A DNA stretch of 58,168 bases from Oscillospiraceae bacterium (lineage in GTDB: Bacteria > Bacillota > Clostridia > Oscillospirales > Oscillospiraceae): contig JAFTYM010000043.1 of NCBI GenBank assembly GCA_017461585.1, positions 1 to 58,168 of the forward strand, read 5' to 3'. Both the position numbers and the translations under genes were made by a program. This document shows, in pieces, positions 4,419-28,872 of the stretch. Below the pieces are notes generated by a model. It saw only the letters and a list, made by a program, of their open reading frames with translations, was not told where the DNA came from and made no database searches. Position 1 is the first letter of the stretch. Every line of letters starts with the position of its first letter.

Positions 4419-5126
4419 TCATAAGCTTTCCAGATATTCACACATTTTTTCAAAAGTGCCGTGACGGAAATTGCCCAGATTGTCTTTGCTGCCAAGCACG
4501 CAGTCTGTAGTGATGAACACATCAAAGCCGACAGCTGCGGCAGCTCCGTCCTCGTCGATGTCGTTGCCGATCATAAGTGTTGTGGCGGGGTCAAGCTCCA
4601 GTTTTTCTGCAAGCTCTGCATAATACTTGGGATTGGGCTTGCAGAAGTGGGAGTTATCGTAAGTGGTTATGTAGTCAAACTCATAGGGGTCAATGTCAAG
4701 CCAGCCAAGACGCGTATGTACAGCGCAAGGGGGAAACAGGGGATTTGTGGCGAGAATAACTCTGTCAGCAATTTTGTGTGCAGCTTCGATAGCTCTTATG
4801 GCATTGGGATTTTCCCATGTGGTAGTTTTTGCCTTGTTGAAATCCTTGGTGTAGAAAGAGTCTATAGTGAAAACGTAGTCAAAAACTCTGTTTCCGAGCT
4901 TTTCTGCAAAGGTGTTCCAAAAACGCTCTTCATTTGTCATGGTGCCGTCATTTTTTACCATCGCCTTGGTGCCTGCCCAAATGCCTGCGATAAATTCGTT
5001 CTGCTCAAAGCCATAAGGCTCCATATACCGTGCCAGCGCGCCGAAATAGACTTTTATGAAATTGTCCATATCCATGGGCAGCAGGTTGCCGTCCAAGTCA
5101 AAGAGGATAGAAGAGTATTTAGCCAT
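4419..5126 (-). CDS. HAD-family hydrolase at the end of the aro operon
   Basis: A 235-residue haloacid dehalogenase superfamily protein, probably a phosphatase on a small metabolite. Motif I is DLDGN (Asp10 nucleophile, Asp12 acid/base), motif II is around VILATN, motif III is the Lys in CKPNP, and motif IV is GNDIDEDG. The alpha-helical stretch between motif I and II (about 20-100) is a type C1 cap. Motif I has Asn where Thr or Val is usual. The ATG overlaps the end of aroQ by 8 nt with AAGGA in front, so it is translated from the aro transcript. No shikimate-pathway step needs a phosphatase, so its substrate is unknown; it may be a damage-repair or side-product phosphatase. Confidence 0.85.
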   Translation of the reverse strand: MAKYSSILFDLDGNLLPMDMDNFIKVYFGALARYMEPYGFEQNEFIAGIWAGTKAMVKNDGTMTNEERFWNTFAEKLGNRVFDYVFTIDSFYTKDFNKAKTTTWENPNAIRAIEAAHKIADRVILATNPLFPPCAVHTRLGWLDIDPYEFDYITTYDNSHFCKPNPKYYAELAEKLELDPATTLMIGNDIDEDGAAAAVGFDVFITTDCVLGSKDNLGNFRHGTFEKMCEYLESL

Positions 5127-5568
5127 TTATATTTTTTCCTTCCAGATATTCTTTCATCTCTATTATAGCACGTTTGTACCCCTCAAAGCCAAGTCCGTAA
5201 ATAATTTTTAATGCGGCATTGCCTGTTATGGATACGTTGCGAAATTCTTCTCTTGAGTGAATATCGGACAGATGGACCTCAATTGTGGGGATGGACACAG
5301 CCTTCAGCGCATCTAAAATTGCGATGCTGTAGTGGGTATATGCGCCGGGGTTTATGACGATGCCGTCATACTTTCCGTAAGCTTCCTGAATGGTGTCCAC
5401 AATGGCACCCTCGTGGTTGGACTGGTATGTGGTGACGGAAATGCCCTCACTTTTACATACCTCGTTTATCATGTCGATAAGGTCTGAAAAGGTCTGCTTG
5501 CCATAAATATCGGGTTCGCGTAGACCAAGAAGATTTAAGTTAGGACCGTTGATTACAAGTAAATTCAC
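5119..5568 (-). CDS. aroQ: 3-dehydroquinate dehydratase, type II
   Basis: Converts 3-dehydroquinate to 3-dehydroshikimate, step 3 of the shikimate pathway, in the cytoplasm. The 149-residue length is typical of the dodecameric type II enzyme. Visible motifs are GPNLNLLGLREPDIYG (with the catalytic Arg and Tyr of the flexible lid), NPGAYTHYSIAILDAL (substrate Asn and the Tyr/His region) and EVHLSDIHSREEFR (catalytic His and Arg). Its ATG overlaps the end of aroEK by 4 nt (ATGA) and its own end overlaps the HAD gene, so it is translationally coupled on both sides. Confidence 0.96.
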   Translation of the reverse strand: MNLLVINGPNLNLLGLREPDIYGKQTFSDLIDMINEVCKSEGISVTTYQSNHEGAIVDTIQEAYGKYDGIVINPGAYTHYSIAILDALKAVSIPTIEVHLSDIHSREEFRNVSITGNAALKIIYGLGFEGYKRAIIEMKEYLEGKNING

Positions 5569-6785
5569 AGTTTAAGGCTCCTTTTGATTTTGTCTGCTGT
5601 ATCTCTCATGCTGATTTCGTTTTTGACCTGTTCATCACAGAATGTACAGTACATGGGTGCGCGTTTTATGTACATATCCATGAGAGAATTTTGCTGAGAG
5701 AGAGGTCTTCCATTTGTGGGGAGAAGTGAGGTGTTTCGCCTTACCCAGACGATGCTGCTGTTCTGGTGCAGTATGGGGTAGTTTGACGGAACAGTTACGC
5801 AGCCTCCGCCTGTGGAGATGACGCAGGCGCTCTTTTTGCAGAGCTCGGATAGTATTTCCTGCTCTTTTTTGCGGAATTCCGCCTCGCCGTAAGTTGTGAT
5901 ATATGTGCCGGGGAAAATGCCTGTTACGCGCTCAAATTCCTCGTCAGCATCATAAAATTCGCGGTTTAAATCTGCTGCCAGCATTTTACCGACGGAAGAT
6001 TTTCCACAGCCGGGCATACCGATGAGAACAATGTTTTTCATCTGTGCGCCGAGTTTTTGAGTTATCTCGGGGATAACGCTGTCGGGTATTTCTGTATCAG
6101 TAAACAGCTCAGCTGCCCTTTTTGCCTGAGCCACCAGCATGGAAAGTCCGTTTTCAAAGGGAATACCAAGCTGCTCGGCCTGCAGTAAAATTGCGGTGAG
6201 AGAGGGGTTGTAGACGATGTCCAGAACACAGATGCAGTTTTTAAACTGAGCAAGGTCGATAAGCCGCTCGCCGTTGTTGGGGTACATTCCCACAGGAGTT
6301 GCGTTGACGATAATATCTGCATCATAGTGTCGGGAGATGTTTTCGTAGTTATCCTCGCCCTTTCGAGAGATGACGACGACTTCCGCTGCACCCAGAGATT
6401 TGAGAACATCCACAACAGTAAGGGATGCTCCGCCCGAGCCGAGAACGATTGCCTTCTTGCCGTTTACATCCGTTCCCGTACTCTTCACCATGTACATAAA
6501 TCCGTAGTGGTCGGTGTTGTACCCGTGAAGTCCGTCTGCTTTTTTAACAATAGTATTAACGCTGCCAATACGCTTTGCGGTGTCTGACAGGGTGGTAAGG
6601 TGGGGGATAACATCTTTTTTGTAGGGGATCGTTACGTTTATACCTTGAAAATCACTATTTTGCAGAAAGTCCTCAAGCCCTTCGGGTAAAACCTCGAAGA
6701 GCTTGTAGTCGTAATCTTTAAGAAACGCATGTATCTGGGGCGAATAGCTGTGCCCCAGCTTTTTGCCCAAAAGTCCGCAGATCAT
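5565..6785 (-). CDS. fused shikimate dehydrogenase / shikimate kinase
   Basis: One 406-residue chain carries two enzymes. Residues 1 to about 245 are shikimate dehydrogenase (AroE; 3-dehydroshikimate + NADPH to shikimate): GKKLGHSYSPQIH near the N terminus binds substrate, NVTIPYK carries the catalytic Lys, and GSGGASLTVVDVL is the NADP-binding loop. Residues 249-406 are shikimate kinase (AroK): a P-loop GMPGCGKSS (256-264), DADEEFE for shikimate and Mg, the STGGG loop and the RPL lid region. The internal Met249 could be an independent start, but no clear ribosome site precedes it and the reading frame is continuous. The gene overlaps pheA and aroQ by 4 nt each. The two fused activities are consecutive in the pathway, so channelling is possible. 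Confidence 0.93.
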   Translation of the reverse strand: MICGLLGKKLGHSYSPQIHAFLKDYDYKLFEVLPEGLEDFLQNSDFQGINVTIPYKKDVIPHLTTLSDTAKRIGSVNTIVKKADGLHGYNTDHYGFMYMVKSTGTDVNGKKAIVLGSGGASLTVVDVLKSLGAAEVVVISRKGEDNYENISRHYDADIIVNATPVGMYPNNGERLIDLAQFKNCICVLDIVYNPSLTAILLQAEQLGIPFENGLSMLVAQAKRAAELFTDTEIPDSVIPEITQKLGAQMKNIVLIGMPGCGKSSVGKMLAADLNREFYDADEEFERVTGIFPGTYITTYGEAEFRKKEQEILSELCKKSACVISTGGGCVTVPSNYPILHQNSSIVWVRRNTSLLPTNGRPLSQQNSLMDMYIKRAPMYCTFCDEQVKNEISMRDTADKIKRSLKL

Positions 6786-7924
6786 TCTATCACCTCGGTA
6801 TAGCTTCCCAAATATCTGAAGTCCTCTGAAACCTGCTGAAGCTCGATGATGAGCTGCTTGAACTCTTCAGAATAGACCGATGCCTTTAAGTCGAAGTAGA
6901 ACATGAACTCAAAGTCCTTGTCGGGTATGGGACGGCTCTCCAGCTTCAAGAGGTTAATACCAAGTCCGTAGAACTTACCCAGAATGCTGTAGAGCGAACC
7001 AGGGCGGTGAGGAGTTGTGAGCATAATACTGTGCTTGTCTGCACCGGGATATATCTCAAGATTTTTGGAGATGCAGATAAAACGTGTGTAGTTGTTGCCG
7101 TAATCCTGTACTGCAGAGTCCAGTACGTTGAGATTGTACAGAGAGGAGCAGTATTCGGATGAGATTGCCGCAAGGTCGCGGCGGTTGCTTTCGGAGACAA
7201 TTCTTGCCGCAACGGCTGTGTTTTCACAGGGAGTCACAATAACACCAAGATCCTCAAGATACTTTGAACACTGGCTGAGTGCCTGTGGGTGTGATATGAC
7301 TTCCTTGATATCAGACAGTTTTGTGCCGTGAAGTGCCATAAGGTTGTGGTCTATTTTTACACGTGCTGAGCGGATTATCTTGAACTCGTGCTTTACCATA
7401 AGGTCATAGACCTGTTTTACAGAGCCTGCAGTACTGTTTTCGATGGGGATAACGCCATAGTTGCACATCCCTGCCTCGATGGCTGAGAAAACGGCATCAA
7501 AGGAATCGAAAAATACGATGCGAGGGTTCTGGAATATCTTCTCGCAGGCAGCCTGAGAGTTTGCACCCTCAATGCCCTGACAGGCAACAACAGAGTTGGA
7601 GGGGAAGACCTTAGGAGTGTTCTCGATAGCTCCTGCAATGTTGTTCCAAAGCTCTGTGTCGCTGTTTAAAAGTCTGCTTTGGTGCAGACGGGAAACTTCA
7701 AAAAGCTGACCGAAGAGAAAAGCTGTGTACTGCTTCATATCGTCGCGTGATTTGGAAACAACATCCGCAAGCTTTTTGCGTTCGCGGGCAGGGTCGTAAA
7801 CTGCCTTGCCAACCTCTTTTTTATATGCAGCAACGCCGGCCGCTATATCCATGCGCTTTGCAAAAAGCTCTATTATTTGGTTGTCTACCGTGTCTATTTC
7901 TTTTCTTAAGGTTTCAAGATCCAT
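6782..7924 (-). CDS. pheA: bifunctional chorismate mutase / prephenate dehydratase (P-protein)
   Basis: Makes prephenate from chorismate and then phenylpyruvate, the phenylalanine branch. Domain order: AroQ-class chorismate mutase (about 1-85, with LRKEIDTVDNQIIELFAKR and the KK--V-DP-RE helix), prephenate dehydratase (about 105-285, with the catalytic T280-R281-F282) and a C-terminal ACT domain (about 295-375, HRPGSLYSILGKFYG and ESRP) that binds phenylalanine in this family and gives feedback inhibition. The 380-residue length matches E. coli PheA. The gene starts 16 nt after aroC and overlaps aroEK. Since tyrA here has no mutase domain, this gene supplies the operon's chorismate mutase. 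Confidence 0.96.
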   Translation of the reverse strand: MDLETLRKEIDTVDNQIIELFAKRMDIAAGVAAYKKEVGKAVYDPARERKKLADVVSKSRDDMKQYTAFLFGQLFEVSRLHQSRLLNSDTELWNNIAGAIENTPKVFPSNSVVACQGIEGANSQAACEKIFQNPRIVFFDSFDAVFSAIEAGMCNYGVIPIENSTAGSVKQVYDLMVKHEFKIIRSARVKIDHNLMALHGTKLSDIKEVISHPQALSQCSKYLEDLGVIVTPCENTAVAARIVSESNRRDLAAISSEYCSSLYNLNVLDSAVQDYGNNYTRFICISKNLEIYPGADKHSIMLTTPHRPGSLYSILGKFYGLGINLLKLESRPIPDKDFEFMFYFDLKASVYSEEFKQLIIELQQVSEDFRYLGSYTEVIE

Positions 7925-7940: not shown

Positions 7941-9026
7941 TCAAAGGGATATCATACCGCACTGAAGCATACTGTCGGTAATTGCGAGAGCTGCTGCCGC
8001 TTCAATGCAGGGGACAGCTCGCGGGACGATACAGGGGTCGTGGCGACCGTTTATGGTCAGCTTTTCGTCTGCCATTTTAGAAAGACTTACACTATCCTGC
8101 TCTCTGAAAATTGAGGGGGTGGGTTTAATTGCAACACGGAAAACTATGGACATTCCCGAGGAAATGCCGCCTAAAATTCCGCCATGATTATTTGTTGTTG
8201 TAACTATATTGCCGTCTTTTACGGTATATGGGTCGTTGTGCTCACTTCCGAACATGGAAGCTGCCTCAAAGCCGGCACCGAACTCAATACCGCGAACGGC
8301 TGGAATGCCGAAAACTGCAGAGGAAATGCGGTTTTCAAGACCGTCGAACATAGGCTCGCCCACGCCCACGGGCATACCAGTTACGATGCACTCGATAATT
8401 CCGCCCACGCTGTCGCCATTTTCCTTTGCAGACAGTATTTCCTGCTGCATTTTTTCGCCTGCAGCGTCATCAATTACGGGAAAAGTTTTTGAGGAAACCG
8501 CTTTGAGTTCCTCGATATTATCTTCGCCGTTTACATCGTCAATGCCGTGGATTGATTTAATGTGGGCATAGACGTTTATGCCATGAGTCTTCAAAAGCTG
8601 CAGACATATTCCGCCTGCTCCGCATAATGGAGCGGTGAGACGACCTGAGAAATGACCGCCGCCGGAAACATCCTGAAATCCCTTGTATTTTACATGAGAT
8701 GTGAAATCTGCATGGGAAGGACGGGGAACGTCGCGTATTTCGGAATAATCAGAAGATCTGACATTTGTGTTTCTTATGATAGCGGCAAGTGGCGCTCCGC
8801 AGGTGGTGTCAGCAACGAGTCCTGACAGAAACTCCAATGCATCAGCCTCAGAGCGGGCTGTGGACAGCTTGTTTTTTCCCGGTGCACGGCGAGCCATGAA
8901 AGAGCCCAGCTCATCCATGTCTATTTTAAAGCCTGCAGGCAGTCCGTCCAGAGAAAAGCCGATAGCGGCAGAGTGTGACTGACCGAATATGGAAAGTTTT
9001 AAAATGTTGCCGTAGCAGCTGCTCAT
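7941..9026 (-). CDS. aroC: chorismate synthase
   Basis: Converts EPSP to chorismate with reduced FMN, the last common step. The 361-residue length is normal. The N-terminal GQSHSAAIGFSLDGLPAG holds the catalytic His, RAPGKNKLSTARSEAD is the Arg-rich phosphate/FMN site, NHGGILGGISSG and GRHDPCIVPRAVP are the two further family signatures. The start overlaps the aroA stop by 4 nt (ATGA), so translation is coupled. Confidence 0.96.
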   Translation of the reverse strand: MSSCYGNILKLSIFGQSHSAAIGFSLDGLPAGFKIDMDELGSFMARRAPGKNKLSTARSEADALEFLSGLVADTTCGAPLAAIIRNTNVRSSDYSEIRDVPRPSHADFTSHVKYKGFQDVSGGGHFSGRLTAPLCGAGGICLQLLKTHGINVYAHIKSIHGIDDVNGEDNIEELKAVSSKTFPVIDDAAGEKMQQEILSAKENGDSVGGIIECIVTGMPVGVGEPMFDGLENRISSAVFGIPAVRGIEFGAGFEAASMFGSEHNDPYTVKDGNIVTTTNNHGGILGGISSGMSIVFRVAIKPTPSIFREQDSVSLSKMADEKLTINGRHDPCIVPRAVPCIEAAAALAITDSMLQCGMISL

Positions 9027-10294
9027 ACAGTTTCCAGCCTTTCTATTTTACCACCCATGCTCTCAAAATCATCCCAGAATGCGGGATATGATTTGCTTAC
9101 GCATTGAGCGCCTTTTACGGTGACAGAGTCTGTGCATATAACAGATGCGCAGGCTGCGGACATTGCAATTCTGTGGTCGCCGCAGGAATCAATAACGCCG
9201 CCCTTTAATGTACCTGAGCCGTTTATGATGAGCTTGTCGGGATACTCTGTGATGTCAGCGCCAAGCGCTTTCAGCATCTCCGTTACAGAGTGGAGACGGT
9301 CACTTTCCTTCATGCGAAGTCTGCCTGCGTGTGTGAATTTTGTCGTACCCTCTGCAGAGGCAGCCACAACAGCCAAAACGGGAACGAGATCGGGAATATC
9401 CGCTGCGTTTATAACAATACCGTGAAGCTTTTCGAAAGACACGGTGACGGTGTCAGGGGTTGTTGTAACGGATGCGCCGAATCTTCGGAGAATACGGACG
9501 ATACGTTTGTCCTTCTGAGAGGACTTGTGGTTAAGACCTGTGCAGATAACGCTCTTTTTGGAAAGAGCGCCCATAGACAGCCAAAAGGCTGCGTTTGACC
9601 AGTCGCCCTCAGCCTTTACATACTCAGGTAAGGAGTATACCTGATTTCCGGGGACGATGAATTTGTCTTCTTCGAAAATAATGTTGATGCCTGACTGAGA
9701 GAGCGCATCGAGAGTCATCTGAATGTAGCCTACGGACTCAAGGTCGCCTTCAATGTGAATTATGCTGTCACCATTTAAAAGGGGCAGGGCAAAGAGCAGA
9801 CCGCTGAAATACTGGGAGGAGATATTTCCGGGAAGAGAATACTCACCAGGGGTGAGCTGAGAAGCACAATGGAGAATATTGTGAGTGTCGTTTTTAATTC
9901 TGCAGCCATGGTTTATAAGCTGGTCTGTCAGCGGAGTGATGGGGCGCTCAGGCAGACGGCCTGTCATGTAAAAACGGGCATCTGCACCTAAAGCTGCGGC
10001 AACAGGCAGGAGAAAACGCAGGGTAGAGCCGCTGTCGCTGCAGTTTAAAAGAGGGTCTGCGGGGATGGTTCCCGCAGGTGTTATCTCATAGCACTTGTCA
10101 TTTCTCTTTATGGAAGCACCCAGCGCGCAAAGACAGCGGGCAGTTGCCTCTATATCGTTGGAGGTATCGGGGCAGTAAATTGTTACGGGGCTTTTAGAAA
10201 GGGCGGCACAGATAAGAAGTCTGTGTACGTGAGATTTTGAATTGATAGCGTGAATACATCCGCCTATTTGGGAGGGGGTGATCTTTACTTCCAT
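9023..10294 (-). CDS. aroA: 5-enolpyruvylshikimate-3-phosphate synthase
   Basis: Transfers the enolpyruvyl group of PEP to shikimate-3-phosphate. The 423-residue chain has the two-lobe EPSP synthase layout: NSKSHVHRLLICAALS (Lys and Ser/Arg of the S3P site) near the N terminus, DSGSTLRFLLPVAAAL in the PEP/S3P loop, RPITPL, EGDWSNAAFWL, and the C-terminal MKESDRLHSV and DHRIAMSAA. The loop that reads NAGTAMRP in class I enzymes reads DSGSTLRF here, so the enzyme is not a textbook class I type. It overlaps aroB by 10 nt and aroC by 4 nt. Confidence 0.95.
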   Translation of the reverse strand: MEVKITPSQIGGCIHAINSKSHVHRLLICAALSKSPVTIYCPDTSNDIEATARCLCALGASIKRNDKCYEITPAGTIPADPLLNCSDSGSTLRFLLPVAAALGADARFYMTGRLPERPITPLTDQLINHGCRIKNDTHNILHCASQLTPGEYSLPGNISSQYFSGLLFALPLLNGDSIIHIEGDLESVGYIQMTLDALSQSGINIIFEEDKFIVPGNQVYSLPEYVKAEGDWSNAAFWLSMGALSKKSVICTGLNHKSSQKDKRIVRILRRFGASVTTTPDTVTVSFEKLHGIVINAADIPDLVPVLAVVAASAEGTTKFTHAGRLRMKESDRLHSVTEMLKALGADITEYPDKLIINGSGTLKGGVIDSCGDHRIAMSAACASVICTDSVTVKGAQCVSKSYPAFWDDFESMGGKIERLETV

Positions 10295-11349
10295 GTTTCC
10301 ACTCCTGTTAAGATAAACTGTTTAAAATCTTCTATAGTCATTTTGAAGAGCTTGCTCTTGCCAAAGCTTACGGGGATGACAGCGGTGATGCTGCTGCCTG
10401 TACGCTTTTTGTCGCTTACAAAGCGGGGAAGAAACTCTTCTTTTGTGTAGCCGTGGTTAAGGGTAAAACCAAAGCTTTTTATAAGCTCAACGATGCGGTC
10501 ACTTGTGTCTTTGGTGCACATTCCTGCATTTTGTGCACTTTCGGAAATTATTGCCATGCCCATTGCGACTGCTCTGCCGTGGGATACACCGAAATTGCTC
10601 AGCTTTTCTATAACATGACCTGCTGTGTGACCGAGATTCAAAAGCTGCCGCATACCGCGGTCAAACTCGTCTCCGTTAACGACATCGCGCTTCATGGAAA
10701 CGCAGGTGGAGATGACGTAGTCTACATCAAAATCTAATCTTTGCTTCTCAAGGTGCTCAAGAAGCTCTGCGTTGCCCAGACAGCCGTATTTTATTACTTC
10801 TGCACAGCCGTCAAGAAAAATATCGGCAGGCAGGGTTTTGAGTGCGTCCGTGTCGCAGAGGACTAAGTGCGGCTGGTAAAATGCACCGCAGAGATTTTTG
10901 CCGCGAGGCAGGTCAATGGCTGTCTTGCCGCCGACAGATGAGTCTACCATTGCCAAAAGCGTTGTGGGTATCTGCACAAGGTTTATGCCTCGCAGATATG
11001 TGGCTGCTGCAAAGCCTGCAAGGTCGCCTGTTACTCCACCGCCGAGAGCGACGATAACATCGCTTCGGGAAAGGTCAGATTCTGCCAGAAAGTTTATAAG
11101 GTCAACGTATGTAGCTGCGCACTTTGAACTCTCTCCATGGGGGAATACATATTTGAAAACTTCTATGCCTTCGTCCGCAATGGACTTTTTGACAGCTTCG
11201 GCATAGAGCTTATCTACATTGTCGTCAGTAACGATGACACATTTTTCTGCGGAAAAAAGAGAAGAGACCTCTTTGCCTGCGGTATCCATCAGCCCTGAGC
11301 CGATGCGTACCTCATAGGCACGGGAGGCATTTACTGTTATGGTGTTCAT
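10285..11349 (-). CDS. aroB: 3-dehydroquinate synthase
   Basis: Cyclises DAHP to 3-dehydroquinate, step 2, using NAD and a divalent metal. The 354-residue length is typical. GGGVTGDLAGFAAATYLRG is the NAD/phosphate-binding core, DSSVGGKTAIDLP the substrate loop, and the metal ligands are the Glu in GCAEVIKYG and the His residues in LNLGHTAGHVIE and the following SHGRAVAMG. The tyrA stop and aroB start share one base (TAATG), so translation is coupled, and the 3' end overlaps aroA by 10 nt. Confidence 0.96.
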   Translation of the reverse strand: MNTITVNASRAYEVRIGSGLMDTAGKEVSSLFSAEKCVIVTDDNVDKLYAEAVKKSIADEGIEVFKYVFPHGESSKCAATYVDLINFLAESDLSRSDVIVALGGGVTGDLAGFAAATYLRGINLVQIPTTLLAMVDSSVGGKTAIDLPRGKNLCGAFYQPHLVLCDTDALKTLPADIFLDGCAEVIKYGCLGNAELLEHLEKQRLDFDVDYVISTCVSMKRDVVNGDEFDRGMRQLLNLGHTAGHVIEKLSNFGVSHGRAVAMGMAIISESAQNAGMCTKDTSDRIVELIKSFGFTLNHGYTKEEFLPRFVSDKKRTGSSITAVIPVSFGKSKLFKMTIEDFKQFILTGVETWK

Positions 11350-12179
11350 TAACCGTCGATCTCCTTTTTAAGATTTGCGCCGTCTGCCAAAAGCTGTTCC
11401 AGCGTCGCGCGGTCACTTCTTTCGAGTGCATCTTTATATTTTACCAGTTCATTTACGATGGTGTCTATCTCAAAAATCATATTATCGCGGTTATTTAAGA
11501 ATAATTCAGCCCACATGATGGGGTTGAGCCACGCAACACGGGTAAGGTCGCGGTAGCTGCCTGCGGAAAAGCCCTTATGGACTTTCGCTGTTGGACTTTT
11601 TATGTATGCGTTTGATACAACGTGAGCAAGCTGGGATGTAAAGGCGATAACGGTGTCGTGCTCTTTTGCCGTTGTGACGGAGATGCTGCCGAAGCCCAAA
11701 GGCTCAAGGATGGTTTTTACTCTGTCAAATAAGGTTATGTCGTCGTATACAGGGGGGACTATGACCATGGGAGCACCGCGGAAAAGATCGGGATTGCTGG
11801 CTCTGTAGCCTGAGTGGTGCGTGCCTGCCATGGGGTGACCGCCCACATACAGGAAACCGTGCTCTGCGGCTGCTTCAAAGCCTGCCTTGCACACCTCTTC
11901 CTTTGTACCGCAGCAGTCTATAACAAGACCTGTCTTTGAAAAGTGAGGTCCGTTGTTTCTGATGTATTCCGCTGCGTCTTTCGGAAAAATGGCGATGAGA
12001 ACGAGGTCACAATCCTTGAGGTTTGTCTCATTAAGCTCCCCTGCAGCGCCGCCTGACATAATGGCGAAAGACAGTATGCTGCTGTCTGTGTCGTATGCCA
12101 AAACCGTGTGTCCTGCTGCGCTGTATGCCTTGGCGATGGAACCGCCTATAAGTCCTAAACCGACTACTCCCACTGTCAT
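11349..12179 (-). CDS. tyrA: prephenate dehydrogenase
   Basis: Oxidises prephenate to 4-hydroxyphenylpyruvate, the tyrosine branch. The 276-residue protein has an N-terminal Rossmann fold (VGLGLIGGSIAKAY, with D30 after the second strand suggesting NAD preference), the GGHPMAGTHHSGY substrate loop, TSQLAHVVSNAY, and an all-helical C-terminal dimerisation domain including SYRDLTRVA. It has no chorismate mutase domain and no ACT domain, unlike many tyrA products, so the protein itself shows no feedback site. GGAG precedes the ATG, which is 13 nt after aroF. Confidence 0.94.
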   Translation of the reverse strand: MTVGVVGLGLIGGSIAKAYSAAGHTVLAYDTDSSILSFAIMSGGAAGELNETNLKDCDLVLIAIFPKDAAEYIRNNGPHFSKTGLVIDCCGTKEEVCKAGFEAAAEHGFLYVGGHPMAGTHHSGYRASNPDLFRGAPMVIVPPVYDDITLFDRVKTILEPLGFGSISVTTAKEHDTVIAFTSQLAHVVSNAYIKSPTAKVHKGFSAGSYRDLTRVAWLNPIMWAELFLNNRDNMIFEIDTIVNELVKYKDALERSDRATLEQLLADGANLKKEIDG

Positions 12180-12192
12180 GGTTATCTACTCC

Positions 12193-13191
12193 TTAAAATA
12201 CTGTACGTATTGTTGCAATTTTCTTTGAAAGGTCGTCAAACTGCTCAGGCGTAAGAGACTGGGCACCGTCGCAGAGTGCGTTGATTGGGTCGTTGTGTAC
12301 TTCTATCATAAGTCCGTCTGCTCCGCAGGCTGCCGCTGCCATGGACATGGGCGGAACAAGCTTTGCGATGCCTGATGCGTGGCTGGGGTCAACGATAACG
12401 GGAAGATGTGTCATTTCGTGGAGCATGGGAACAGCGGAAATGTCGAGTGTATTTCTTGTAGCTGTTTCAAATGTGCGGATGCCGCGTTCGCAGAGGATGA
12501 CGTTGGGGTTGCCCTGAGCGAGGATGTACTCGGCGCTCATTAAAAGCTCGTTGAGAGTGTTTGCAAGACCGCGCTTTAAGAGTACGGGCTTTCCAAATTT
12601 GCCCACTTCCTTTAAAAGTTCGAAGTTCTGCATGTTTCTGGCACCCACCTGAATAACGTCTACGTCTTTGAAGAGGGGGAGGTGAGATGCGTCCATAAGC
12701 TCTGTTACGATGGGAAGACCTGTCTTTTCCTTGGCTTTAAGGAGAAGCTCAATGCCGTCACCGCGGAGTCCCTGAAAAGCATAGGGAGATGTACGGGGTT
12801 TAAATGCACCGCCGCGAAGCATGTTTGCGCCGCTTTCTTTTACTCTTTCTGCGATGGTTGTAAGCTGTTCTTCGGATTCAACAGAGCAGGGACCGGCGAT
12901 AATAGCGAAATTGCCGCCGCCGATCTTAACGCCGTCAATGTCGATCACGGAGTCATCGGGATGGAATTTACGGCTGCACTGCTTATAGGGCTCTGAAACG
13001 CGCTTTACGGAGTCTACGATGGAAAGACTTTCAACCAGAGAGACGTCGAGATGATTTGTGTCGCCTACAAGTCCCAATACTGTATATTCGCTGCCCACGG
13101 AGAGGTGGACTTCGATGCCCTGTGTTTTGAACCAGCTGATAAGGTGGTCACGCTGCTGCTCTGTGGTGTTGGGTTTTAATACGGTTATCAT
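12193..13191 (-). CDS. aroF: DAHP synthase, type I-beta, with N-terminal regulatory domain
   Basis: Condenses PEP and erythrose 4-phosphate to DAHP, the entry step. The 332-residue chain has a ferredoxin-like N-terminal domain (about 1-70), as in the Thermotoga maritima enzyme, where that domain mediates feedback by aromatic amino acids. The TIM-barrel follows with GPCSVES, KPRTSPYAFQG (PEP/phosphate site), QVGARNMQNF and DPSHASG (metal site). The start at 13191 is chosen because GGAGG stands 8 nt before it; the in-frame ATG at 13206 contains that ribosome site. It is first in the operon, behind the Tyr/Phe leader. A second DAHP synthase of another subtype is at 42466. Confidence 0.95.
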   Translation of the reverse strand: MITVLKPNTTEQQRDHLISWFKTQGIEVHLSVGSEYTVLGLVGDTNHLDVSLVESLSIVDSVKRVSEPYKQCSRKFHPDDSVIDIDGVKIGGGNFAIIAGPCSVESEEQLTTIAERVKESGANMLRGGAFKPRTSPYAFQGLRGDGIELLLKAKEKTGLPIVTELMDASHLPLFKDVDVIQVGARNMQNFELLKEVGKFGKPVLLKRGLANTLNELLMSAEYILAQGNPNVILCERGIRTFETATRNTLDISAVPMLHEMTHLPVIVDPSHASGIAKLVPPMSMAAAACGADGLMIEVHNDPINALCDGAQSLTPEQFDDLSKKIATIRTVF

Positions 13192-13210
13192 GGTAAAATC
13201 CTCCATTAAT

Positions 13211-13237
13211 TAAAATAAGACCGCACTTTGTGCGGCC
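13211..13237 (-). terminator. attenuator terminator in the aro leader
   Basis: On the minus strand the hairpin CCGCAC-AAA-GTGCGG (13221-13235, with an outer G-C pair) is followed by TCTTATTTTAATT, an imperfect U-tract. It lies between the leader peptide and aroF, so read-through must be permitted for the operon to be expressed. Its 5' arm (13227-13236) pairs with 13290-13299 in 9 of 10 positions, an alternative antiterminator. Confidence 0.8.
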
Positions 13238-13305
13238 TTACGGTTTACTGAAATTATCTTCAAAAGAGAAATAACAATCACTGTAATTTGCAGCACAAAT
13301 AGCTT

Positions 13306-13365
13306 TTACTTGTTTCTAAAGTAAAAGTAATAATAGTATGCAAATCTGATAGCAGACATTGTCAT
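13306..13365 (-). CDS. Tyr/Phe-rich attenuation leader peptide of the aro operon
   Basis: A 19-codon reading frame, MTMSAIRFAYYYYFYFRNK, with GGAGA eight to nine bases before the ATG. Codons 10-13 are Tyr (TAC TAT TAT TAC), then Phe, Tyr, Phe: eight of 19 residues are Phe or Tyr, the end products of the operon it precedes. The gene is too short for routine gene calls. It works by being translated: when charged tRNA-Tyr or tRNA-Phe is scarce the ribosome stalls in the run and covers ATTTGCA (13339-13345), which otherwise pairs with TGCAAAT (13286-13292). That leaves 13290-13299 free to pair with the terminator's 5' arm. A ribosome that reaches the stop covers part of 13290-13299 and allows termination. 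The design matches pheL of enteric bacteria. Sequence and pairings are seen; the mechanism is inferred. Confidence 0.88.
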   Translation of the reverse strand: MTMSAIRFAYYYYFYFRNK

Positions 13366-13398
13366 GAAATGCTTCTCCGTGAAAAAAGATTTGAGACT

Positions 13399-13427
13399 AT
13401 TTAACACCCAAAACCTTGATATGTCAA
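13399..13427 (-). promoter_or_regulatory. promoter of the aro operon
   Basis: On the minus strand TTGACA (13422-13427), 17 nt, TTAAAT (13399-13404). Predicted start near 13392, which gives a 5' part of about 27 nt before the leader peptide ATG. The -35 box is inside the palindrome 13410-13433. Confidence 0.7.
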
Positions 13428-13504: not shown

Positions 13505-14377
13505 TTATCTATGCTTGCCGAGGAAGAACAGAGCGATTGTGCCGGGACCGGAGTGTGCGCCGATAACAGGACCGATGGTGCTGATTACAACCTCGGGAAC
13601 GCCAAGCTGCTCCTTGATCATGTTTGCAAGGTCAACAGCTTCACTCTCGCAGTCACCATGGCTGATGTAAACATAGTTCTTCTCTTCTTCAATAAGAGTT
13701 TCCTGCATCTGGGCAAGGAGAGCCTTGATAGAAGCTTTTCTGCCTCTTGCCTTTGCAACGTTTATAAGGTGACCTTCTTCGTCAACGTGCAGAATAGGCT
13801 TGATGTTGAGAACAGAACCGACGATAGCGGTAGCTGCGGAAACGCGGCCGCCTCTTTTCAGGTGGAACAGGTCGTCAACTGTGAACCATGCGCAAACATC
13901 ATGACGCTTTTTGTCAAGATACTCACACAGAGCGTCAAATTCCATGCCTTCGTCGCGTTTGTCACATGCCATGATAACGAACATACCCTGACCGAAAGAA
14001 GCCATGAGAGAGTCTACTGCATAAGCCTTTCTGTCGGGGAACTCTTCTGTAAGCTCGGAGAAAGCTACCTGAGCTGCGCTGATGGTGCTTGTAAGACCGG
14101 AGGAAAGACCGATGTAGAGAATGTCCTTGCCCTCTTCCATAAAGGGACGTGCAGCCTCTTTGAGCTGCTCAGGATTGAGCGCTGATGTGCTTGCTGTTTC
14201 GCCTGAACGCAGCTTGGCATAAAACTCCTTGGAGGTCATGTTGCGCTCGTCGGGGTAATGGGGGAAGGAAGCATCGCCCATAGTAACTGTCATGGGGATG
14301 ACATGGATGTTTCTGCTCTCTACCAAAGACTGAGGAAGATCGCCTGCGGAATCGGTAATGATTACATAATTGCTCAT
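13505..14377 (-). CDS. DegV family fatty-acid-binding protein, copy 1
   Basis: A 290-residue DegV protein. Members bind long-chain fatty acids; in Firmicutes those named FakB hand them to the FakA kinase. Motifs: DSAGDLPQSLVE near the N terminus, STSALNPEQL, GLSSGLTSTISAA (fatty-acid carboxyl pocket), KRGGRVS and a C-terminal GPVIGAHSGPGTIALFF. AGGAGA fixes the ATG at 14377; an ATG 36 nt upstream has no ribosome site. It is a single-gene unit with its own promoter and terminator. No fakA lies in the window. A second DegV gene is at 38553, and two FakB proteins with different acyl preference per genome are common. Confidence 0.92.
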   Translation of the reverse strand: MSNYVIITDSAGDLPQSLVESRNIHVIPMTVTMGDASFPHYPDERNMTSKEFYAKLRSGETASTSALNPEQLKEAARPFMEEGKDILYIGLSSGLTSTISAAQVAFSELTEEFPDRKAYAVDSLMASFGQGMFVIMACDKRDEGMEFDALCEYLDKKRHDVCAWFTVDDLFHLKRGGRVSAATAIVGSVLNIKPILHVDEEGHLINVAKARGRKASIKALLAQMQETLIEEEKNYVYISHGDCESEAVDLANMIKEQLGVPEVVISTIGPVIGAHSGPGTIALFFLGKHR

Positions 14378-14442
14378 AGTAGTTCTCCTAAAAAAGTGGT
14401 AATTGTTATCCAATGAGATAATATTAAAAACAAGATGTTATA

Positions 14443-15665: not shown

Positions 15666-16886
15666 TTACAGGGAGAAGCGGTGGAAAATCTTCTTGCCCT
15701 TTTTGATTTTGATGCTCTCCTTAAGCTGTGCCTCGGAAACTGTCTGACCGATGCCTGTTACCTTTTCACCGTCAACGGAGATACCGCCCTGCTCGATAAG
15801 ACGCTTTGCCTCACCACGGCTCTTTGCGATGCCGCCAAGCACAAGAAGGTCTGCAACGGAGACAGCGCTGTCAACAAGAGAAGCCGCGTCAACAACTGTG
15901 TGGGGCATGTTTGCATCGTCGCCTGCGCCGCTGAAGAGCGCCAGAGAAGTCTCCTGAGCCTTCTTTGCCTCTTCTTCACCGTGAACAAGAGCTGTCAGGC
16001 TGTAAGCCAGAATGGACTTCTTCTCGTTGATGCGGGAATCATCCCACTTGTCCATTTCGTCGATCTCCTCAAGAGGAATGAAGGTGAGCATGCGGATGCA
16101 CTTCATAACGTCAGCATCGCCGACATTGCGCCAGTACTGATAGAACTCGAAGGGAGAAGTCTTGTTGGGGTCGAGCCAAACAGCGTTGCCTGCTGTCTTA
16201 CCCATCTTCTTGCCCTGAGAGTCGGTGAGAAGGGTAATTGTCATGGCGCTTGCATCCTTGCCCAGCTTGCGTCTGATAAGCTCGGTACCGCCGAGCATGT
16301 TGGACCACTGGTCGTCGCCGCCGAACTGGAGATTACAGTTGTAGTTCTTGAAGAGATAGTAGAAGTCGTAAGACTGCATGATCATATAGTTGAACTCGAG
16401 GAAAGAGAGACCCTTTTCCATTCTCTGCTTGTAGCACTCGGCTCTCAGCATGTTGTTAACAGAGAAGCAGGCGCCGACTTCACGGAGCATGTCAACGTAG
16501 TTGAGGTTTAAAAGCCAGTCTGCGTTGTTGAGCATCATAGCCTTGTCATCGCCAAACTCGATGAATTTCTCCATCTGTTTTTTGAAGCACTCTGCGTTGT
16601 GGTCGATGTCTTCCTTTGTGAGCATCTTTCTCATGTCAGTTCTGCCGGAGGGGTCGCCGATCATGGTTGTGCCGCCGCCGATGAGGGCGATGGGCTTGTT
16701 GCCAGCCATCTGAAGACGCTTCATAAGTGTGAGCGCCATAAAATGACCTGCTGTAAGGCTGTCTGCTGTGCAGTCAAAGCCGATGTAGAAGGTTGCTTTG
16801 CCGTTATTTATAAGCTCCTTAATTAAAGGCTCATCTGTAACCTGAGCGATAAGGCCGCGTGCCTGCAGCTCTTCATAAATGTTCAT
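15666..16886 (-). CDS. tyrS: tyrosyl-tRNA synthetase
   Basis: Charges tRNA-Tyr. A 406-residue class I synthetase with an AGHFMAL variant of HIGH (about 46-52), GGDDQWSN in the tyrosine pocket, KKMGKT as the KMSKS loop, and a C-terminal S4 RNA-binding domain (SRGEAKRLIEQGGISVDG). GGAGG precedes the ATG. A promoter is visible but no T-box leader, unlike many Firmicutes tyrS genes. Its place between degV and the SPFH operon, 2.5 kb from the aro promoter, is thematically fitting because charged tRNA-Tyr is the presumed signal for the aro attenuator. Confidence 0.96.
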   Translation of the reverse strand: MNIYEELQARGLIAQVTDEPLIKELINNGKATFYIGFDCTADSLTAGHFMALTLMKRLQMAGNKPIALIGGGTTMIGDPSGRTDMRKMLTKEDIDHNAECFKKQMEKFIEFGDDKAMMLNNADWLLNLNYVDMLREVGACFSVNNMLRAECYKQRMEKGLSFLEFNYMIMQSYDFYYLFKNYNCNLQFGGDDQWSNMLGGTELIRRKLGKDASAMTITLLTDSQGKKMGKTAGNAVWLDPNKTSPFEFYQYWRNVGDADVMKCIRMLTFIPLEEIDEMDKWDDSRINEKKSILAYSLTALVHGEEEAKKAQETSLALFSGAGDDANMPHTVVDAASLVDSAVSVADLLVLGGIAKSRGEAKRLIEQGGISVDGEKVTGIGQTVSEAQLKESIKIKKGKKIFHRFSL

Positions 16887-16961
16887 CTTCTGTTCCTCCT
16901 AAAAAATAAAGGTCAGACAAGAAATTTCTCATCCGGCCGAAGCTGTCAGATTTCGCAAAAC

Positions 16962-16990
16962 AGTATAACAGCTTTTTATATAAAGCGCAA
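16962..16990 (-). promoter_or_regulatory. promoter of tyrS
   Basis: On the minus strand TTGCGC (16985-16990), 17 nt, TATACT (16962-16967). The leader is about 70 nt and shows no T-box or leader peptide. Confidence 0.6.
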
Positions 16991-17019
16991 GTGCCGCATG
17001 GTTAAAAATCATTGAGAAC

Positions 17020-17055
17020 AAAGGAAAAACCGCAGCTTATCTCTAAGCTGCGGTT
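17020..17055 (-). terminator. terminator of the nfeD-SPFH-XRE operon
   Basis: 12-bp stem AACCGCAGCTTA/TAAGCTGCGGTT with a TCTC loop, followed on the minus strand by TTTTCCTTTG. It begins directly after the XRE gene stop. Confidence 0.85.
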
Positions 17056-17059
17056 AAAA

Positions 17060-17260
17060 CTATTTGTCTGTAAATTCGGCTATGTCTTCTAAACGGCATT
17101 GCAGTATTTTGCAAAGCTGGTCGAGAGTATAGGTGTTGACATTCTGATTCTTTCGGAGTCTGTCAAGCTGACCGGTGCTTATGTTGTATTCGTGTATGAG
17201 CTTGTATTGCGAAATACCGCGCTTTTTCATAGTTTCCCATAATCTGTCAAACACGATCAT
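17060..17260 (-). CDS. small XRE/Cro-type helix-turn-helix regulator
   Basis: A 66-residue protein that is one DNA-binding domain of the Cro/C1 type: MKKRGISQYKLIHEYNIS forms helices 1-2, TGQLDRLRKNQNVNTYT the recognition helix region, and LDQLCKILQCRLEDIAEF the last helices. There is no dimerisation or sensor domain. AGGAGG stands 8 nt before the ATG at 17260; an in-frame GTG at 17269 lies inside that site. The gene is 18 nt downstream of an SPFH gene, with its ribosome site next to that stop, so it belongs to the operon and may regulate it. Confidence 0.85.
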   Translation of the reverse strand: MIVFDRLWETMKKRGISQYKLIHEYNISTGQLDRLRKNQNVNTYTLDQLCKILQCRLEDIAEFTDK

Positions 17261-17278
17261 ACAAAGCACCTCCTTGGC

Positions 17279-18199
17279 TTAATTTTCTGCCTGTGTTACG
17301 CCGGAACTGCCGAAGTCAAAGACGGGGGTCATGCCGTTTTCACCTGCGACGAAGGTGGGAAGCTTGCCGTCCCATTTCTCGGCGTATGTATAGTCGATAA
17401 GCTCCTGCGTAAGGGAGTTGGAGATAAGCTCATTTGCCTCCGCCTCAGCTTCAGCTCTTGTGATGATCTCATAAGCCGCTGCGTCTGCCTCTGTCTTTCT
17501 GATCTCAGCTTCAGCCTCAGCCTCAATGACCTTCTGCTCAGCCTCGGTTTCTGCCCTCAGCTTGTTCTGCTCGGCAACCTGCTTTTCTTCAACTGCGTTT
17601 GTGAAGGCGTCTGTAAAGTCCATATCCTCGATAGAGGTGCTTACAAGCTCAATGTTGTAGTAAATAAGCTTTGTGGCAATGTCTTCCTCAATGGCCTGTG
17701 CCAACTCGCTTCTGCGTCCGATTATCTCTTCTGCATTATAACGGGCGGTGACGATTTTTACAGACTCTGCGATGGCAGGTGCGATAACCGTGTTGTAATA
17801 GTCTGTGCCGATAGTGCTGTAAATGGTCATGGCGTCAGACTTTTTGATCTGGAAGTTTACTGTGTAGACCATGGATACTTCCTGAATATCGGAAGAGAAA
17901 CAGGAGAGCTCAACGGTCTCCTTCTGTACGCGGTTATCCATCTTTACAACGCTCTGCCAGGGAAGGACAAAGTGCAGACCGGAGTCCAGCGTATAGTTTT
18001 CAACACGTCCGAAAGTGGTTACAACACCTGTGTGACCTGTGGGGACGGATGAAATGCAGGATGATGCGATGAGTAATACTGCCAGCAATACACCGACTAT
18101 CAGTCCGCCGAAAGCTGCCTGTTTTTTCTTAGTACGGACAGTCAGAAAAACGATCACACCGACAATGGCGGCGATGACGCCTAAAAACAATAAAAACAT
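17279..18199 (-). CDS. SPFH/prohibitin-family membrane protein
   Basis: A 306-residue protein with two N-terminal hydrophobic segments (about 2-20 and 30-50), then an SPFH (band 7) domain starting VPTGHTGVVTTFGRVENYTLDSG and a long helical, Ala/Glu-rich coiled coil (about 195-270). SPFH proteins form large ring- or cage-like oligomers on the membrane and organise lipid domains or protease partners. AGGAGC precedes the ATG. It is third in the operon after nfeD and a second SPFH gene and differs from that one in sequence and topology, so this is not a recent duplication. No FtsH gene is nearby. Confidence 0.85.
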   Translation of the reverse strand: MFLLFLGVIAAIVGVIVFLTVRTKKKQAAFGGLIVGVLLAVLLIASSCISSVPTGHTGVVTTFGRVENYTLDSGLHFVLPWQSVVKMDNRVQKETVELSCFSSDIQEVSMVYTVNFQIKKSDAMTIYSTIGTDYYNTVIAPAIAESVKIVTARYNAEEIIGRRSELAQAIEEDIATKLIYYNIELVSTSIEDMDFTDAFTNAVEEKQVAEQNKLRAETEAEQKVIEAEAEAEIRKTEADAAAYEIITRAEAEAEANELISNSLTQELIDYTYAEKWDGKLPTFVAGENGMTPVFDFGSSGVTQAEN

Positions 18200-27105: not shown

Positions 27106-28461
27106 TTATATTCCCAAAACAAGCTCTGCGATTTTGCAGTAAATGAAAAGTGACAGGGCGTCAACAATAGTTGTAATAAAGGGGCTTGCCATTACAGCAG
27201 GGTCAAGACCGATGCGCTTGGCTGCTATGGGAAGTGCGCAGCCCACAAGCTTTGCAACGAAAACGGTTACGATAAGGGTAAGGCAGATGATAGATGCAAC
27301 GCCGATTGCAACGTGGTCAATAAGCATGAGCTTTCCGAAGTTTACGATTGCAAGGGAGACACCACACATTACGGAAACGCGGATCTCTTTCCAGATAACG
27401 CGTAAGGTATCGGAAAATTCGATCTCCTGCAGAGAAAGTCCGCGGATAACGGTAACGGATGACTGGCTGCCGCAGTTACCGCCTGTACCTGTAATCATGG
27501 GGATAGACGCAACGAGAATTGTGTATGCGGAAAGTGCGCCTTCAAAGTGGCTGATTATCATGCCCGTAAATGCTGCAGAAAGCATGAGGAAAAGCAGCCA
27601 GGGAATACGGCTCTTGTAGATGTCAAAAACGGACTGGCGAAGATAGGGCTTGTCTGAAGGGGTGATAGCACCCATCTTCTCCATATCTTCAGTAGCCTCT
27701 TCCTGAATAACGTCGATAGCGTCGTCGATTGTTACAATACCGACGAGACGTGTCTCTTTGTCGACAACGGGAAGGGCGGTGAAGTCGTATTTTGCGAACA
27801 TATCCGCAACAGTTTCCTGATCCTCCGTTGTGTAGACGAAGATGACGTTAGGCTCCATAATGGTTTCAATAACGTCGTCTTCTTCGGAGAGGATAAGGTC
27901 ACGGATTGAAATAGCACCGATAAGACGGCGTGATTTATCTGTTACGTAACAGACGTTGATGGTCTCTTTGTCGATACCTGTCCTGCGGATGCTCTTGATA
28001 GATTCTGCAACGGTGAGGTCAGGGCGAAGCTCCACAAACTCTGTGGTCATGATGCTTCCGGCTGAATCCTCGGGGTATTTCAGCATCTCGTTGATAAGAC
28101 GACGTGTCTCGGGGTCAGACTGCTTTAAAATACGTTTTACAACGTTTGCAGGCATCTCCTCAACAAGGTCAACAGTATCGTCCATGTACAGCTCGTCCAG
28201 AATTTCTTTCAGCTCGTTATCGGAAAAGCTGCTTATAAGCTGTTCCTGAAAATCTCCGTTCATTTCGACAAATGATTCTGCAGCCAGCTCTTTAGGGAGC
28301 AGGCGGAACAGCAGGGGAATTTTGTTACGGGGCATCTCCTCAAAAACATAAGCGATGTCGGCAGGGTTCATAGTTGTGAGGATGTCACGCAGGGAGTTAT
28401 ATTTTTTGTTCTCGAGCAAAGCCTCGATGGTAGATTCCATGGTGGAAGTAAGTTCTGCCAT
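27106..28461 (-). CDS. mgtE: MgtE-family magnesium transporter
   Basis: A 451-residue Mg2+ channel/transporter. An N-terminal superhelical domain (about 1-130, DILTTMNPADIAYVFEEMP), a pair of CBS domains (about 135-255, SIMTTEFVELRPDLTVAESI and MEPNVIFVYTTEDQETVADMFA read in parts) that bind Mg2+ and gate the pore, and five transmembrane helices (about 285-448) with the pore motif GTGGNCGSQ. GGAGG precedes the ATG at 28461; longer starts lie in the leader. An M-box riboswitch and a small ORF precede it, so expression rises when Mg2+ is low. Confidence 0.95.
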   Translation of the reverse strand: MAELTSTMESTIEALLENKKYNSLRDILTTMNPADIAYVFEEMPRNKIPLLFRLLPKELAAESFVEMNGDFQEQLISSFSDNELKEILDELYMDDTVDLVEEMPANVVKRILKQSDPETRRLINEMLKYPEDSAGSIMTTEFVELRPDLTVAESIKSIRRTGIDKETINVCYVTDKSRRLIGAISIRDLILSEEDDVIETIMEPNVIFVYTTEDQETVADMFAKYDFTALPVVDKETRLVGIVTIDDAIDVIQEEATEDMEKMGAITPSDKPYLRQSVFDIYKSRIPWLLFLMLSAAFTGMIISHFEGALSAYTILVASIPMITGTGGNCGSQSSVTVIRGLSLQEIEFSDTLRVIWKEIRVSVMCGVSLAIVNFGKLMLIDHVAIGVASIICLTLIVTVFVAKLVGCALPIAAKRIGLDPAVMASPFITTIVDALSLFIYCKIAELVLGI

Positions 28462-28549
28462 TTTTGATGTCCTCCGTTCTGATTGAATTTGCATTTCGCA
28501 CTTGCGAAAGGATCAGACAGGAGCAGGACGCGTATCTTCAAGCGAAGTC

Positions 28550-28657: not shown

Positions 28658-28872
28658 GAAATAAAAATAACCCATACGCGGCAGGCGTTACGGGCTTTTA
28701 TCACGTCAATATGGCGCACCGTAACGAGCTTCAGCATCGCGGGGCGGTGTAACTGCGTTAAATCATGCCTTGTGCTTCGACATGACCTGTTCAAACCAAC
28801 GGATAGTGTCTCCACTATTTTGCGGCAGCAGCCCATATCCCCACGGTAGCCTTACCTACCGGAAGTTTCTTC
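28658..28872 (-). ncRNA. M-box (ykoK) magnesium riboswitch
   Basis: The minus strand 28872-28745 reads like the M-box aptamer: GGTAGGTAAGGCTACC (compare GTTAGGTGAGGCTCC), then GGGGATATGGGCTGCTGCC, a small hairpin with GTGGAGACAC, CCGTTGGT and an A/G-rich GAACAGG with AAGGC and TTTAACG later. The expression platform ends in a bulged stem CCCGTAACGC/GCGTATGGG (about 28665-28690) followed by TTATTTTTATTTC, a Mg2+-dependent terminator. It stands directly upstream of mgtE, the usual target of this class. Family known; boundaries approximate. Confidence 0.85.

Follow-up and report, generated by a model that had tools for sequence, protein, structure and literature searches.

An open reading frame (ORF) of 19 codons, rich in tyrosine and phenylalanine codons, lies upstream of aroF on the minus strand, with a DegV-family gene (13505-14413) on its other side, raising the question of whether the aromatic amino acid operon behind it is governed by the progress of a ribosome through that ORF. 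The stretch analysed, hereafter the window, is a contig of 58,168 nucleotides from an Oscillospiraceae bacterium. We consider it highly probable (roughly 0.92) that the aroF leader is a classical ribosome-mediated transcription attenuator of this operon. Its anatomy and conservation, the covariation of its 1:2 and 3:4 helices, the preference of regions 2 and 3 for their own partners, and the way in which the codon run follows the downstream gene were all computed directly. The leader comprises the following features:

13427-13399, minus strand: predicted sigma-70-type promoter, from the sequence, with -35 TTGACA at 13427-13422, a 17-nt spacer and -10 TTAAAT at 13404-13399.
13378-13375, minus strand: Shine-Dalgarno core GGAG of the leader ORF, from the sequence.
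13365-13306, minus strand: leader peptide ORF MTMSAIRFAYYYYFYFRNK, 19 codons from ATG 13365 to the stop codon at 13308-13306, from the sequence.
13338-13318, minus strand: control codons (putative sensor) Tyr-Tyr-Tyr-Tyr-Phe-Tyr-Phe, from the sequence, the four Tyr codons at 13338-13327 and Phe-Tyr-Phe extending to 13318.
13339-13345, minus strand: outer arm of region 1, pairing with 13286-13292 and competing with 2:3 (complementarity and folding).
13319-13327, minus strand: inner arm of region 1, CUUUUACUU, the Tyr/Phe codons themselves, pairing with 13303-13311 (minimum free energy folds; a covarying helix in 34 aligned leaders).
13283-13311, minus strand: region 2, the element AAGUAAAAG..AUUUGUGCUGCAAA, holding the 3' arms of 1:2, with 13290-13299 as the 5' arm of the antiterminator (alignment A1, below, and duplex tests).
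13227-13236, minus strand: region 3, GCCGCACAAA, pairing with 13290-13299 as antiterminator or joining the terminator (complementarity).
13241-13215, minus strand: intrinsic terminator hairpin (3:4) of 12 pairs with loop AAA, followed by T-rich TTTAATTAAT (terminator scan; in A1, 10 of 10 pairs show compensatory change).

A preliminary description had proposed a 19-codon ORF with four Tyr codons followed by Phe-Tyr-Phe, a ribosome site and a terminator before aroF, and its coordinates hold in the sequence; the pairings it had claimed are complementary at 7/7 positions for 1:2 (13345-13339 with 13292-13286) and at 9/10 for 2:3 (13299-13290 with 13236-13227). Its placement of region 1 just before the Tyr run is correct for the outer part of 1:2, which competes with 2:3, but the codon run itself forms an inner part absent from that account. 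This is a longer helix of 9 bp between CUUUUACUU (13327-13319) and AAGUAAAAG (13311-13303), the latter spanning the last Lys codon, the stop codon and 3 nt, and in the window it is compatible with 2:3. The ORF contains 5 Tyr and 3 Phe among its 19 codons. The 190-nt leader folds more stably than 200/200 shuffles (z -4.24), and in the window the pairings exceed composition shuffles at p = 0.03 for 2:3 and p = 0.01 for 1:2. A terminator scan of the window leader returned 2 terminator-like sites in 371 bases, against 0.2 expected from shuffles; the T tract of the window terminator is modest rather than strong, and the hairpin ends 8 nt upstream of the aroF frame. The genes that follow are:

12193-13206, minus strand: aroF, DAHP synthase (PRK08673 / TIGR01361, family match), the first gene.
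11349-12179, minus strand: tyrA-like prephenate dehydrogenase (family match, below curated cut-offs).
10285-11349, minus strand: aroB, 3-dehydroquinate synthase (family match).
9023-10294, minus strand: aroA, 3-phosphoshikimate 1-carboxyvinyltransferase (family match).
7941-9026, minus strand: aroC, chorismate synthase (family match).
6782-7924, minus strand: pheA, chorismate mutase / prephenate dehydratase (below NCBIfam cut-offs; PF00800 over cut-off).
5565-6785, minus strand: shikimate dehydrogenase / shikimate kinase fusion (aroE-aroK) in one ORF (residues 2-244 and about 247-404 match two families, below cut-offs).
5119-5568, minus strand: aroQ, type II 3-dehydroquinate dehydratase (family match).

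A HAD-like hydrolase also belongs to the operon. The earlier claim of a complete aromatic operon is borne out by family search, with enzymes found for all seven shikimate steps together with those of the Phe and Tyr branches (chorismate mutase-prephenate dehydratase and prephenate dehydrogenase). Although ATG first occurs in the aroF frame at 13206, the gene more likely starts from the ATG at 13191, which GGAGG at 13204-13200 precedes. On the same strand, about 2.2 kb upstream of the leader, lies tyrS (15666-16886), upstream of which no Rfam match was found at E <= 0.1 (16860-17290 scanned).

According to the mechanism that we propose, transcription would begin near 13392, as judged from the promoter, and translation of the leader ORF would follow immediately. 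As long as charged tRNA-Tyr and tRNA-Phe are abundant, the ribosome would reach the stop codon at 13308-13306 with its footprint extending into region 2; 2:3 would then be blocked, and the terminator at 13241-13215 would halt RNA polymerase short of aroF. Under a shortage of Tyr (or Phe), the ribosome would halt within 13338-13318 and mask region 1. Region 2 would then pair with region 3 ahead of the synthesis of region 4, and the polymerase would read through into aroF-tyrA-aroB-aroA-aroC-pheA-aroEK-aroQ. Without a ribosome the terminator should form, because 1:2 hinders 2:3 in most relatives, although in the window this basal state is less clear-cut. Translation, ribosome-polymerase coupling, stalling and read-through are steps that we infer. 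As for the features expected of this class of attenuator, the leader has an ORF with its own ribosome site (translation being predicted), a cognate codon run, an intrinsic terminator, and an antiterminator that uses the 5' arm of the terminator and is blocked by an earlier hairpin, in the window by the outer 1:2 helix only.

Conservation was assessed upstream of aroF. A search of 60 relatives matched aroF in 46, from which 30 loci were taken; the best 80 loci from named genomes were added to give 110. Leaders were defined as ORFs of 8-65 codons with at least 6 Tyr/Phe/Trp in a 10-codon window, within 350 nt upstream of aroF. Such an ORF precedes aroF at 87/110 loci (26/30 relatives and 61 of the best 80 from named genomes), these loci being related and including a few near-duplicates (L012/L098, L062/L063); scores of at least 7 were reached in 68 and of at least 8 in 37 of the 110. 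Dinucleotide shuffles (n=2200) attained a score of 6 in 2.2%, 7 in 0.3% and 8 in none, and reverse complements reached 6 in 3/110: the aromatic ORF before aroF is not due to chance. Its ten-codon windows are made up largely of Phe and Tyr (321 and 306 residues, respectively, of 870 in the 87 windows), and Trp was rejected as the main signal with only 7. Named species with such a leader include Sporobacter termitidis, Aminicella lysinilytica, Angelakisella massiliensis and Yanshouia hominis. An aromatic leader with aroF was also observed on contigs labelled Treponema, Treponemataceae, Lentisphaerae, Oligosphaeraceae or Thermoguttaceae (L043, L045, L094, L097, L102, L107), reflecting either transfer of the cassette or misbinned contigs.

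Ten of the 23 loci below the threshold score 5, some of them with plausible leaders (MRAMLHSRFAYYYALYRKSRA in L073, for example); at several of the 23, aroF overlaps or closely follows another frame. Two of the 23, L075 and L079, carry a 7-scoring ORF further upstream. This leader-like ORF (MEKEMK.Y.SYFYFYFNSKV) begins about 430-480 nt ahead of aroF, from which additional sequence separates it. Replacement of the missing leader by a T-box was considered and rejected, in that Rfam scans of 20 of the 23 (L075, L079 and L092 left out) returned no cis-regulatory match at gathering score and one tRNA only.

The remaining parts of the leader recur with the ORF. A hairpin with a T tract lies between the codon run and aroF at 87/87 loci, at a median distance of 71 nt from the run. 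In one of these, L007, the scan chose the wrong ORF (the likely leader ends 87 nt before aroF), and this locus was therefore omitted from the pairing, composition, ribosome-simulation, Shine-Dalgarno/promoter and hairpin-energy tests, leaving 86. Because the hairpin scan alone is lenient, with some hairpin of any strength in 219/258 shuffles, an energy threshold provides the real control: T-tract hairpins of -15 kcal/mol or better occur in 81/86 loci compared to 16/258 shuffles (medians -21.3 and -7.2). The hairpin ends at least 20 nt before the aroF frame in 41/86 loci. A Shine-Dalgarno core precedes an in-frame start in 78/86 leader ORFs, compared to 236/1322 start-like codons of the same regions, and upstream promoters matching TTGACA/TATAAT at 11-12 of 12 positions were found for 51/85 leaders, composition shuffles reaching at most 10. 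The peptide is variable outside the run and the paired element, the picked ORFs ranging in length from 15 to 42. The preliminary description had made conservation in relatives one test of its reading, and there the aromatic ORF, Shine-Dalgarno sequence, promoter, terminator and pairings all recur.

To characterize the pairings, we aligned 34 of the 86 leaders, a non-random sample chosen for a shared element (alignment A1). The consensus reads UUUGCAGC..GCAUAU..UUUUACUUUUACUUUAU....AGUAAAAGUGAUUUGUGCUGCA....GGCC.CGCAGUG......CUGCG.GGCCUUUUUU, in which the Tyr/Phe codons pair with AGUAAAAG as helix 1:2, and helix 3:4 is the terminator. Across these two helices, compensatory (two-sided) change occurs at 16/22 pairs and 90.7% of cells are paired; 0/500 shuffles equalled any of five measures, and sliding the partner destroyed the signal. 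In 6/34 leaders a U-A pair of 1:2 is swapped to A-U: UAU stands in place of a UUU codon, with a matching change in the opposite arm.

Support for 2:3 from the MAFFT alignment was weak and mixed, probably because MAFFT misplaces the gaps of the terminator loop. Although 72.4% of cells are paired (1/500 shuffles as high) and the covariation score was attained by 9/500, double-change pairs were equalled by 281/500 and further pair types by 179/500, and sliding by +3 gave a higher covariation score than in place. We therefore used an alignment-free swap test with a composition control. Over the 86 loci, a leader's own 2:3 duplex averages -16.96 kcal/mol compared to -12.08 for swapped partners, and its own 1:2 duplex -22.8 compared to -15.64 (0/10,000 permutations in each case). 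Relative to composition shuffles of the partner, p <= 0.05 was reached for 1:2 in 67/86 loci and for 2:3 in 52/86, and missed in 19/86 and 34/86, respectively.

A covariance model (R1), built from the chosen subset in A1 and applied with strict filters, had matches at E <= 0.01 in 52/391 genomes of the class, the window's own included. Downstream genes were assigned for 29 match loci (L124-L152; aroF 25, pheA 3, tyrS 1) and for 20 more (aroF 8, pheA 5, tyrA 1, phenylacetate-CoA ligase 1, and 5 unclear, namely L236, L237, L238, L239 and L241), with 11 further matches left out; 4 of the last 5 pheA calls were made by family search and one (L247) because its translation resembles the rest. The composition of the run changes with the gene that it precedes. 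Within one genus (g117), seven pheA leaders hold 51 Phe and 0 Tyr, compared to 17 Phe and 36 Tyr in six aroF leaders (Fisher 3e-15, treating residues from related leaders as independent), and in one genome of another family a Tyr-Tyr-Tyr leader precedes tyrS (L150). Exceptions to this rule are a near-all-Phe leader before aroF (L231) and a mixed leader before pheA (L130). Together with conservation in relatives, this tracking of the downstream gene by the amino acid of the run supports the attenuation reading.

As a rough control, no ORF with a Tyr/Phe score of at least 6 was found at 76 loci of pheA (30), tyrS (30) and trpE (16), scored for Tyr/Phe only over 350 nt upstream of the stop-to-stop frame, with the strand perhaps wrong for a few. 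In the window's own genome (79% complete), R1 was convincing only at the aroF leader, a training sequence (E 2e-10); the next three matches (E 0.13-0.62) look like chance and were rejected. The seven g117 pheA leaders (L148, L152, L230, L235, L244, L247, L248) differ in layout, the ORF starting 6-7 nt after a TATAAT box in 7/7. As this leaves no room for a ribosome site, these Phe-only peptides seem, from the sequence, to be translated from leaderless mRNA; the g117 aroF leaders have a Shine-Dalgarno-like sequence in 5/6. We also observed an aromatic leader, MFLSVLFVFICLYFYFFAFLFCKSKSVLCCG, before a phenylacetate-CoA ligase gene (L229, genome G166), whose product perhaps makes Phe from phenylacetate, although this is a guess.

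The consequences of ribosome position for the switch were simulated on RNA up to region 3 only, with an assumed footprint of -18 to +12 from the A site held unpaired. In the window, a ribosome stalled anywhere between the second Tyr codon and the Arg codon that follows the run leaves 2:3 with 12.7-13.3 expected pairs; the figure is 1.6 for a ribosome at the stop codon and 9.7 when no ribosome is present. For the window, the modelled contrast between stalled and stop is clear and that between stalled and untranslated is not, because the inner 1:2 helix can coexist with 2:3 and only the outer arm competes. Averaged over the 86 loci, 2:3 has 11.48 expected pairs when the ribosome occupies the aromatic codons, 4.04 when it is at the stop and 6.53 without a ribosome; the stalled state exceeds the stop state by >1 pair in 73/86 loci (the reverse in 5) and exceeds the ribosome-free state in 65/86 (the reverse in 4). 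A ribosome at the start codon gives 9.42 pairs compared to the 11.48 of the stalled state, lying >1 pair above it in 18/86 loci and below it in 48. When the full window leader was folded with region 4, the terminator was favoured at equilibrium for every ribosome position tried; hence the switch must be kinetic, with the order of synthesis decisive. In trp attenuation, the order of synthesis is likewise accepted as deciding.

These data bear on three other explanations. It is improbable, to our judgement, that the ORF is translated and ribosome position matters, but through RNA decay, Rho-dependent termination or the initiation of aroF translation instead of the intrinsic terminator. The hairpins of -15 kcal/mol or better in 81/86 loci (compared to 16/258 shuffles) and the compensatory change at 10/10 pairs of the terminator stem argue for termination, and at 41/86 loci the hairpin ends at least 20 nt short of the aroF frame, even though in the window the T tract is modest and the 8 nt to that frame are close enough for the hairpin to affect initiation.

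Still less probable is a riboswitch, T-box or protein-binding RNA governing the terminator, with the ORF a by-product of a U-rich, pairing-constrained RNA. Since the UUUUACUUU codons pair with AAGUAAAAG, part of the Tyr/Phe run could indeed be kept for pairing. However, no Rfam family reached threshold at the loci scanned (the window and 18 relatives), a Shine-Dalgarno sequence stands before 78/86 leader ORFs, the UUU-to-UAU changes are matched on the opposite arm, and the residues depend on the gene (exclusively Phe ahead of pheA in one genus, Tyr-Tyr-Tyr ahead of a single tyrS) while the ORF, terminator and pairing element stay. The least probable explanation is that the peptide itself acts, as a Tyr/Phe-rich signal or membrane peptide to which the aroF neighbourhood is incidental. 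Its shortness, aromatic richness and good Shine-Dalgarno sequence would suit such a role, but the variable residues outside the run and paired element, lengths of 15 to 42, and the terminator that follows do not; nor do the genes behind it (mostly aroF, otherwise pheA, tyrA, tyrS, phenylacetate-CoA ligase and 5 unclear) or the score of 6 reached in 0/76 loci of the rough pheA, tyrS and trpE control. Ribosome-mediated attenuation is therefore the reading that we prefer.

A T-box or other known RNA at the leader was rejected: no Rfam family reached gathering score at the window leader or at 18 relatives' loci, and the T-box family RF00230 had no match at this leader, in agreement with the preliminary description. 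Elsewhere in the window's genome (79% complete) there are 9 T-box matches, 4 over cut-off. Phe_leader was absent from the 27 Rfam matches at E <= 10 and Trp_leader scored 13.1 bits compared to a gathering score of 41, placing the leader outside these proteobacterial families. The window also holds an M-box (magnesium) riboswitch (28710-28870, minus strand) upstream of an MgtE-type transporter gene (27106-28494), an expected pairing.

Extending the attenuation reading beyond the window, we think it probable that in much of the Clostridia the shikimate/Tyr/Phe operon is usually controlled by classical leader-peptide attenuation rather than by a T-box. The leaders would form one evolving family in which the run has been re-tuned for each gene (a Tyr/Phe mixture for aroF, Phe alone for pheA, Tyr for tyrS), with leaderless versions lacking a ribosome site in one genus, and which would have accompanied aroF into Treponema, Lentisphaerae and Planctomycetes. 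The attenuator in the window provides a testable account of Tyr and Phe sensing in these Clostridia through a gene too small for normal calling. Related genomes, in which the runs of aroF, pheA and tyrS leaders differ, offer a natural experiment for codon-specific sensing, and covariance searches can find more such leaders.

The pheL and trpL attenuators of Enterobacteria (Rfam Phe_leader and Trp_leader) are ribosome-mediated and built from regions 1-4. The aroF leader resembles them in its short ORF with codons for the product amino acids, its Shine-Dalgarno sequence, its regions 1-4 and its alternative antiterminator and terminator before a biosynthetic operon; it differs in having no sequence match to them, a mixed Tyr/Phe run, a whole shikimate operon starting from aroF, and a host of another phylum. 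T-box riboswitches likewise sense tRNA charging through a terminator and antiterminator, whereas here an ORF is the sensor. The kind of element is known and the family is widely distributed, but a Tyr/Phe attenuator family is apparently undescribed in Clostridia, no report of such a leader peptide having been found in the open-licence literature searched; it may be in print elsewhere.

Among described elements, the closest precedents are the uORFC-13-1 motif and the His leaders predicted for Firmicutes. The uORFC-13-1 motif, compared here by its text description, also lies before aroF and combines a uORF having at least one Phe codon with a promoter, ribosome-binding site and terminator; its 24 representatives are from Acholeplasma and unassigned or environmental sequences, and the available text describes a further helix and no 1:2 / 2:3 switch (PMC8632094). 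The candidate riboswitch of the Enterococcus faecium aroF operon is, from the text available, a different element (PMC4448216). The preliminary description held that this form of attenuation is known from Proteobacteria and that Firmicutes usually use T-boxes or TRAP; published accounts qualify the second part with cases for His (PMC2965389, PMC9413887), Leu (PMC5794164) and the Acholeplasma aroF uORF (PMC8632094). His-leader attenuators have been predicted in 17 Firmicutes genomes (PMC9413887), and His leader peptides are reported in bacilli, with predictions covering Bacillus and some Clostridia (PMC2965389, PMC9413887); the authors of PMC2965389 knew of no earlier case outside Proteobacteria and Actinobacteria, ermC apart. 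These leaders share with ours a codon-run peptide, attenuator, antiterminator and terminator, and an occurrence in Firmicutes where T-boxes or HisR are absent (PMC9413887, PMC2965389); they differ in sequence and in serving histidine genes. The ilv leader of Staphylococcus aureus, a Leu-responsive attenuator studied by experiment (PMC5794164), is, on the published description available, also an amino-acid-responsive leader-peptide attenuator of Firmicutes, differing in its amino acid (Leu), its operon (ilv) and its class (Bacilli). To these few leader-peptide attenuators reported in Firmicutes, the leader described here would add the aromatic pathway.
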